Shown piece by piece: positions 5,425 to 43,132 of a DNA stretch of 64,000 nt; positions within the stretch are counted from its first letter, which is position 1, and every line of letters starts with the position of its first letter. Both the position numbers and the translations under genes were made by a program. Origin of the DNA: an uncultured Clostridia bacterium (GTDB lineage: Bacteria; Bacillota; Clostridia; Christensenellales; CAG-314). The stretch is taken from NCBI GenBank assembly GCA_947053925.1, contig CAMRUG010000005.1:17743-81742 (forward strand). The letters run 5' to 3'. Below the pieces are notes generated by a model that made no database searches, had not been told where the DNA came from, and was given only the letters and a program-made list of their open reading frames with translations.

Positions 5425-6009
5425 TTACTTCCGCTCATAAAATACTTGGTCTACTATACCGTAATCTTTTGCCTCTTCGGCAGTCAAATAGTTGTCTCTG
5501 TCGGTATCTTTCTCTACGACTTTGACGTCCTTTCCAACATTTTTTGCAAGAATTTTGTTTAACTTCTGTTTGGTTTTTAACAACTGTTTCGTTTGAATTT
5601 CAACGTCGGAAGCCTGTCCTTGAGAGCCGCCTAAAACCTGATGAATCATAATTTCGGAATTGGGTAACGCGTAACGCTTACCCTTTGCGCCGCTGGACAA
5701 AAGAAACGCTCCCATAGACGCCGCCATACCTATACAAATAGTAGATACGTCGGGACGGATATAATTCATCGTATCGTATATTGCCATTCCGGCAGTAACT
5801 TCTCCGCCCGGACTGTTGATATAAAGGGATATGTCTTTGGTCGGGTCTTTGGATTCCAGATAAATTAGCTGCGCAACGACAAGGTTGGCAAGTTCGTTGG
5901 TAATCTGTCCCGATAAAAATATTACTCTGTCTTCGAGCAATCTCGAATAAATGTCGAAACTCCTTTCTCCGCTGTCGGTGCGGTCCACTACCATAGGTAC
6001 TAGCGTCAT
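5425..6009 (-). CDS. clpP: ATP-dependent Clp protease proteolytic subunit ClpP
   Basis: [27 protein letters not shown] catalytic Ser, MIHQVLGG catalytic His. Confidence 0.98.
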
Positions 6010-42100: not shown

Positions 42101-42199
42101 TAATTATCTTTGACAATTTAACTTTGTTGTGATAATCTATACTAGCACTAAATAATTTACCGGTGTGGCTCAGTCGGTGTTACAATTAAATATCAATAT

Positions 42200-42275
42200 G
42201 CTGGTGTGGCTCAGTCGGTAGAGCAATTGATTCGTAATCAATAGGTCGGGAGTTCGATTCTCTTCACCAGCACCA
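42200..42275 (+). tRNA. tRNA-Thr (anticodon CGT), CCA encoded
   Basis: GCTGGTG..CACCAGC acceptor; GCTC..GAGC D stem; ATTGA-TTCGTAA-TCAAT anticodon arm; GGGAG-TTCGATT-CTCTT T arm; ACCA 3' end. Confidence 0.92.
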
Positions 42276-42308
42276 ATACCTTGACAAGATTAGTCAAGGT
42301 ATTTTTTA
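42276..42308 (+). terminator. tRNA-Thr terminator
   Basis: AATACCTTGAC-aagatta-GTCAAGGTATTTTTT; second copy at ~42663-42697. Confidence 0.85.
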
Positions 42309-42310
42309 TA

Positions 42311-42697
42311 GAAACTTATAACTCAGAACTCCCGACGGAGTTCGCTTAGCCGAGCGACGTAGGAGCGAACGCCACGCAGCCGCAGGCGAAGTATTCTCTT
42401 CACCAGCACCATAAAAGTCTATCAAATATTGGTAGGCTTTTATTCTATTTACTCTACCCGACCTATTGGGTGCCGCTTCGCTCGACTTCACTAGGTCGGG
42501 AGTTCGCGCGTCGACAAACTTTGTTTGCCGCGCCTTGCCGAGAGGTCTCCGCTTGGCGGAGTTTCGGCAAATTCTCTTCCCCCGGTCGCAAGCACAGCAT
42601 TGCTCCTCGCTTTGGCTACGGAATCCGCACCGCGGATTTCCGTTACGCGTCGCGCCAGCACCAATACCTTGACAAGATTAGTCAAGGTATTTTTTTG
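42311..42697. repeat. array of tRNA-Thr 3'-end fragments interrupted by GC-rich nested-palindrome inserts
   Basis: attctcttcaccagcacca repeated at 42257-42275 and 42393-42411; aggtcgggagttcg at 42493-42506, attctcttc at ~42571-42579 and ccagcacca at ~42654-42662 form a split copy. Confidence 0.8.
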
Positions 42698-43132
42698 TAA
42701 TTACAATCAATTGCTCTATTATTCACAACATCGTAACTTGATATCTGTTTATTCGTAATACTTGTTTCGTTATATTAGTCGCACCATTATCGGGCGGCGC
42801 GGCTAAGCAATAGAGAAGATTCGCGTTCGGTTTTTAACCGCGCGTAAAAAAAGCAGTTGCCGCATTGTATAATTAAGTGCAAAGTACAATACTTTATATC
42901 TCGACTTTTTATCAAAATGGCTTTCGTTTTTAATACTCTTTTGTTTTGCGTACTATTCAAACACTATTGCAATGCAAAATAAAAAGTGATACAATGATAT
43001 GGGTAATGTTATGAACAAATAAATCTATCTTATTTTGACCGGTTCACAAAAGAGACAGCACAGCAAACAAGGTTGAAATTTTGCAGAATTTAAATGCAAT
43101 TTAAATACTTTACACACGATACAGAGGCAACT

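Follow-up and report, generated by a model that had tools for sequence, protein, structure and literature searches.

Around a single tRNA-Thr(CGT) gene of an uncultured Clostridia bacterium lie broken copies of the same tRNA, some of them split by GC-rich palindromic inserts, which raises the question of what broke these copies and how the inserts came to lie within them. The window, meaning the whole 64,000-nucleotide stretch that was analysed (G000:C5:17743-81742), belongs to a draft MAG of 34 contigs and 1.65 Mb. In our judgement this tRNA locus has probably been hit repeatedly by minimal non-coding palindromic mobile elements, its pieces being multiplied by tandem partial duplication, and we propose that an enzyme acting in trans moves the elements. 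The genome-wide work rested on searches and sequence stretches.

Structure of the tRNA-Thr(CGT) locus

The intact gene and the pieces surrounding it are listed in Table 1. A first-pass annotation had described a 19-mer repeat of the tRNA end with a terminator-like hairpin, a further broken copy with inserts, a second copy of the tRNA terminator, and inverted tRNA pieces. The 19-mer and its hairpin are present as described (42393-42411), and the broken copy and its inserts were found where they had been placed, give or take a few bases. The second terminator copy belongs to a 41-nt stretch, tRNA end and terminator together, that is repeated exactly (42267-42307 and 42655-42695), and the inverted pieces were located at 42326-42336 and 42457-42468. 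Missed at that stage were an upstream 5' fragment (42162-42178) and a 14-nt inverted piece (42705-42718); the inverted pieces around the gene number three, all short.

A 48-nt cassette of the type designated class A (42345-42392) splits the T-loop of fragment 1 exactly between TTCG and ATTC. The three inserts of the locus represent at least two families, class A and class D (for which only 8 copies could be collected), together with one insert without class assignment. Parts of the same junctions recur in independent MAGs (81% in G010, query 296-549; 86% in G011, 494-654), so that an assembly slip is unlikely.

Table 1. Features at and around the tRNA-Thr(CGT) gene, in window coordinates
Feature	Position	Strand	Evidence
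tRNA-Thr 5' fragment (positions 4-20)	42162..42178	+	exact self match; 34-nt direct repeat D2
tRNA-Thr(CGT), intact	42200..42275	+	ARAGORN; Rfam tRNA 73 bits
Terminator of intact tRNA: perfect 11-bp hairpin and T run	42275..42307	+	inverted repeat I10, direct repeat D1
Inverted T-arm piece GAACTCCCGAC, caps inner end of 3' fragment 1	42326..42336	-	inverted repeat I9
3' fragment 1, T-arm 5' strand GGAGTTCG	42337..42344	+	sequence; direct repeat D12
Class A palindromic element, 48 nt, at tRNA position 57^58 (TTCG^ATTC)	42345..42392	+	covariance model match G000:C5:60087-60134; junction
3' fragment 1, tRNA-Thr 3' end (positions 58-76), ATTCTCTTCACCAGCACCA	42393..42411	+	D4, 100% identical
Terminator-like hairpin of fragment 1, unlike intact gene's terminator in sequence	42411..42443	+	inverted repeat I6
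Inverted tRNA piece CCCGACCTATTG, fragment 2 capping hairpin, pairs with 42489-42500	42457..42468	-	I7, I13
3' fragment 2, anticodon-arm end and T-arm 5' strand, TCACTAGGTCGGGAGTTCG	42488..42506	+	D5, 95% identical
64-bp palindromic insert without class assignment, target TTCG^ATTC; partly common to G011	42507..42570	+	sequence comparison
3' fragment 2, ATTCTCTTC	42571..42579	+	D3
Class D palindromic element, 75 bp, in acceptor 3' strand of fragment 2	42580..42654	- (reverse orientation)	
tRNA-Thr 3' end CCAGCACCA (42655-42663) and second exact terminator copy	42655..42695	+	D1, 41 nt at 100%
Inverted tRNA-Thr D/anticodon piece AATCAATTGCTCTA, 14 nt	42705..42718	-	I3, 100% complementary

Downstream 3' fragments of a tRNA are the usual trace left by islands that integrate through tyrosine integrase att sites, and partial tRNA genes in prokaryotes have often been attributed to integrated elements (PMC9897764). 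Here, however, the cassettes lie inside tRNA sequence, upstream 5' fragments are equally frequent, the units are too short for genes, and one cassette type occurs across many tRNAs. At tRNA-Thr(CGT) no integrase gene lies between the fragments and there is no room for one; no ORF of at least 90 aa was found between 42101 and 43093. Remnants of ordinary tRNA-integrating islands are on this evidence a highly improbable source of the fragments.

Structure and distribution of the class A element

Class A elements have the layout CTCAGCCGA-(variable covarying hairpin)-GAACGCCACGGAGCGNAGCGGAGT over 30-59 nt, and the consensus from 31 aligned copies reads CTCAGCCGAG-(stem)-CGAACGCCACGGAGCGNAGCGGAGT. 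The stem is hypervariable yet paired (85% of cells vs 55% shuffled) and covaries, with 51 both-side changes vs 17 shuffled and only 3 G-U cells. A paired, covarying stem with so few G-U cells would point to DNA palindromes that are renewed whole and not to slow RNA compensation. GNA triloops occur in 27 of 52 perfect stems, and folding strength was not clearly above that of shuffles.

By covariance model, class A is found in 24 of the 25 genomes of the genus (about 140 matches, 0-14 copies per genome). Beyond the genus, 2 of the family's 16 other genomes carry it, and the order as a whole has 31 positive genomes among 297, mainly from the genus itself and one further family. When 85,462 species genomes from an independent set were searched with a strict class A pattern, 32 stretches matched, two of them likely by chance; the remaining 30 lay in MAGs of uncultured Clostridia, and for many of these the sample label is gut (rabbit, sheep, goat, roe deer). 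Carriage by phages was considered and rejected, viral contigs having given no match. On sequence grounds class A is a discrete element. The first-pass annotation had named absence of the cassettes elsewhere as grounds for rejecting its reading; that condition does not hold, since they are present in other tRNA genes of the same genome and in nearly all relatives.

Insertion sites and preference for tRNA genes

The cassette was removed from 98 distinct class A copies and the joined flanks were compared with tRNA genes. A tRNA match ran across the excised junction in 67 of the 98, a share biased upward to an unquantified extent because tandem relatives are counted among the copies and some loci were reached via tRNA-Thr searches; the match was perfect and ungapped in 37. 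Insertions recur at 5^6 in Arg(ACG), 16^17 in Leu, 53-57 in Gly and Arg(CCT), 27^28 and 36^37 in Met, and, depending on species, 30^31, 39^40 or 57^58 in Thr(CGT). In another family of the order, new loci likewise have class A in tRNA-Thr and tRNA-Leu, and one tmRNA gene is followed by a 3' tmRNA fragment holding a single class A element (L118:645-1300). Insertion had initially been ascribed to the T-arm; GC-rich palindromes are indeed inserted in tRNA sequence, but insertions are found at acceptor-stem, D, anticodon and T positions alike.

The target consensus is YB^ATT, with a pyrimidine at -2 in all 59 distinct sites and ^ATT in most. Orientation of the element is fixed by the target motif, and insertion is usually precise, without target duplication or loss. 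The motif alone cannot cause the tRNA bias, since the window contains about 15 such motifs per kb and the 43 tRNA genes only 29 between them. Targeting of hairpin loops had initial appeal, given hits in T-, anticodon- and D-loops and in an IS200 end hairpin. It was rejected: stems at 96 insertion sites did not exceed in strength those at 6000 control AT sites, and the Arg(ACG) hit lies in the acceptor stem.

The best proof of insertion outside tRNA genes comes from the 3' region of an IS200-like element. This region is empty (GACACG^ATTTCGTG) at three loci (L140, L150, L155) and filled at three others (L143, L144, L149; genomes G021, G015, G013) by a 30-nt class A element without target duplication, and therefore class A truly inserts. 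That class A might be a part of the IS200-like element was rejected, as the alignment shows insertion into that element. A scheme with no mobile element at all, in which tRNA palindromes give rise to the inserts by slippage during replication and fold-back template switching, would fit the capping of fragments by inverted tRNA pieces; however, the cassette flanks are conserved between genera, in many different tRNAs and in an IS element, and because the cassette sequence is common to so many sites a slippage-only origin is contradicted and hardly credible.

Two further repeats were observed in connection with class A. In JAIEBL, a distant MAG, eight class A copies lie, counter to the tRNA pattern, in a dispersed non-tRNA repeat, GTCATTCC ... 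GGAATCC (L109, L111, L114, L115, L116, L131, L132, L134). A class B repeat, GTAGCGCTCCGTT..CTTACCC..GGGACGA, directly precedes tRNA 3' fragments, some of them decayed; in the window's own genome it is found downstream of tRNA-Glu, Ile, Ser and Pro (L063, L058, L072, L060), and near tRNA-Ser in relatives it is apparently itself a class A target (L195, L209).

Duplication of tRNA loci

Exact self-fragments (at least 15 nt, within 800 bp) accompany 10 of the 43 tRNA genes of the window's genome: Gly(CCC), Ala(CGC), Ile(GAT), Pro(CGG), Leu(TAA), Leu(AAG), Glu(CTC), Arg(CCT), Arg(ACG) and Thr(CGT). Such self-fragmentation is far above chance, at 0.42 per own tRNA gene vs 0.0018 per non-self pair in the control. 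All nine upstream fragments are from the 5' half and all nine downstream fragments from the 3' half (Fisher 4e-5), a polarity that follows by geometry if tandem duplications have one of their breakpoints within the tRNA and an intact copy is kept. In about half of the testable cassette-bearing copies, the neighbouring 30 nt match those of the intact gene at 63-100% (control median 27%, maximum 63%).

These sequences show that class A inserts as a 30-59 nt unit at YB^ATT, mostly within tRNA or tmRNA sequence, and that pieces of the tRNA locus are duplicated in tandem, often with promoter-side or terminator flank, from a breakpoint inside the tRNA; some broken units were later re-duplicated together with their cassette. 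Tandem duplication appears to be a process distinct from insertion, because the IS200 insertion came without duplication and because identical cassettes in successive tandem units (G016, L137, L219) indicate duplication after insertion. Spread by partial duplication, as first suggested for the inserts, does multiply some broken copies, but each tRNA is hit independently at the short target motif. Fragments end in inverted caps, which suggests that the template was switched by fold-back as the duplications arose. The simplest link between insertion and duplication would be that insertions persist mainly in spare copies, since loss of a single functional gene would be selected against.

Interrupted copies could themselves be functional, either by removal of the cassette from the RNA in the manner of an intron or through arrays that make tRNA-derived small RNAs or decoys. 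Tandem arrays bring their own upstream flank (L219). In G016 (L230, G016:C38:1-520) the tandem tRNA-Arg(ACG) copies are full-length and otherwise clean, each bears a cassette at 5^6, and no uninterrupted Arg(ACG) was found in this MAG; its contig starts inside the array, however, so that an intact gene may be unassembled. At a locus in G019 (L170, G019:C1), tRNA-Leu(CAA) carries two inserts, one in the D-loop and one in the variable arm; a terminator copy lies upstream, and the locus has no intact Leu(CAA) gene. Against function, most copies are truncated or decayed, the acceptor stem is also hit, and an intact sister tRNA is nearby for 50 of the 67 interrupted copies; the CAA, CGT, CCC and CCT isoacceptors are wobble-redundant, which also counts against it. 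We regard functional interrupted copies as very unlikely.

All genomes are draft MAGs, with many class A copies at contig ends. For many cassettes the nearest contig end is no more than about 150 bases away (L165, L190, L217, L218 and others), and the arrays therefore probably break short-read assemblies.

Candidate mechanisms of movement

As a last step of the mechanism, an enzyme acting in trans would move class A, possibly via single-stranded DNA hairpins. No mobilising gene was identified when the distributions of Y1 transposase, reverse transcriptase and IS110 were compared over 25 genomes, and no recent transposition between strains was seen in the draft MAGs. Reverse transcriptase (only 5 of 25 genomes) and IS110 (only 1 of 25) were rejected as movers.

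In a narrower form of this step, class A would travel as single-stranded DNA, a REP- or PATE-like passenger whose carrier is a Y1 (HUH) transposase of IS200/IS605 or RAYT type. The absence of target-site duplication, the fixed short motif and orientation, the subterminal hairpins and the GNA triloops are all consistent with this, and REPs are documented to be cleaved at dinucleotides next to hairpins (PMC8266576). Y1 genes occur in 12 of the 25 genomes, with slightly more class A there (p=0.05, phylogeny ignored), but many class A-bearing genomes are without them, and class A is common in G004, G009, G012 and G016, none of which has a Y1 match. The local IS200-like elements have ends unrelated to class A, appear to insert after T-runs and are themselves targets, and class A is without a GTAG-type foot. 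Carriage by a Y1 transposase is possible, though we find it rather doubtful.

We would put forward, tentatively and with more doubt than confidence, that class A is a new bacterial mobile DNA of about 45 nt whose enzyme recognises tRNA or tmRNA genes as such, by structure, transcription or processing. Under that reading the targeting logic would be comparable to that of eukaryotic elements homing near tRNA genes.

Comparison with known systems

Like MITEs, class A elements are small, non-coding and would be mobile in trans. The class A ends, CTCAGCC and GCGGAGT, share only CTC/GAG and form no terminal inverted repeats of the MITE kind; target-site duplication was absent from the 37 perfect ungapped junctions and from the IS200 empty/filled pair, and no parental autonomous transposon with class A ends was seen near Y1 genes. 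A 2024 review of MITEs does not mention tRNA (PMC10969869). REPs, also short hairpins of bacteria, are probably mobilised in trans in single-stranded form, and some lie within other palindromes (PMC3733652); they are extragenic and usually present above 100 copies (PMC2817692). By contrast with these and with the GTAG- or CGTC-tagged REPs and REPINs of RAYT (TnpA-REP), class A has 0-14 copies per genome, 67 of 98 in tRNA sequence, and neither tag stands beside the hairpin in the 31-copy consensus. Because it fails defining tests of both, class A is filed under neither MITE nor REP. Its fixed short motif (YB^ATT, 98 copies), fixed orientation and lack of target-site duplication agree with PATEs, but local IS200 ends and target differ from those of class A. 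With respect to group I or II introns and known RNA families, no Rfam match was found over the insert, tRNA being the sole Rfam family in the window, in agreement with the early view that the insert has no known family; reverse transcriptase is present in 5 of 25 genomes.

Rickettsia palindromic elements, like class A, are palindromes inside genes, but they differ in size (about 150 bp) and lie in frame in protein genes (PMC10969869). Tandem duplication changes tRNA copy number in Pseudomonas fluorescens (PMC7661048); those duplications are large-scale, whereas the Clostridia ones are sub-gene units with cassettes. Yeast mitochondrial GC clusters of the GC42 type are about 42 nt, have an AG target motif and no known transposase, and merge and shuffle (PMC4478555). 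They are, like class A, GC-rich and palindromic with constrained structure and a short target motif; unlike class A, they are mitochondrial and not reported as tRNA-directed (PMC4478555), and no sequence relation is claimed.

We found no description of tRNA-invading palindromes in the open-access literature. Small bacterial palindromic repeats are mostly extragenic; class A differs in that RNA genes are its main target, the cell coping via one intact copy among broken ones. The locus is a natural record of how a tRNA locus is duplicated and broken, class A arrays account for odd tRNA-like fragments and contig breaks in such MAGs, and the element offers a tractable system for learning what marks bacterial tRNA genes as an insertion target. 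The likeness to GC clusters and REPs noted from the outset holds in kind, although by the tests run class A is a member of neither; our best reading is that class A is a mobile element of minimal, palindromic build that resembles GC clusters or REPs in kind and targets tRNA genes.
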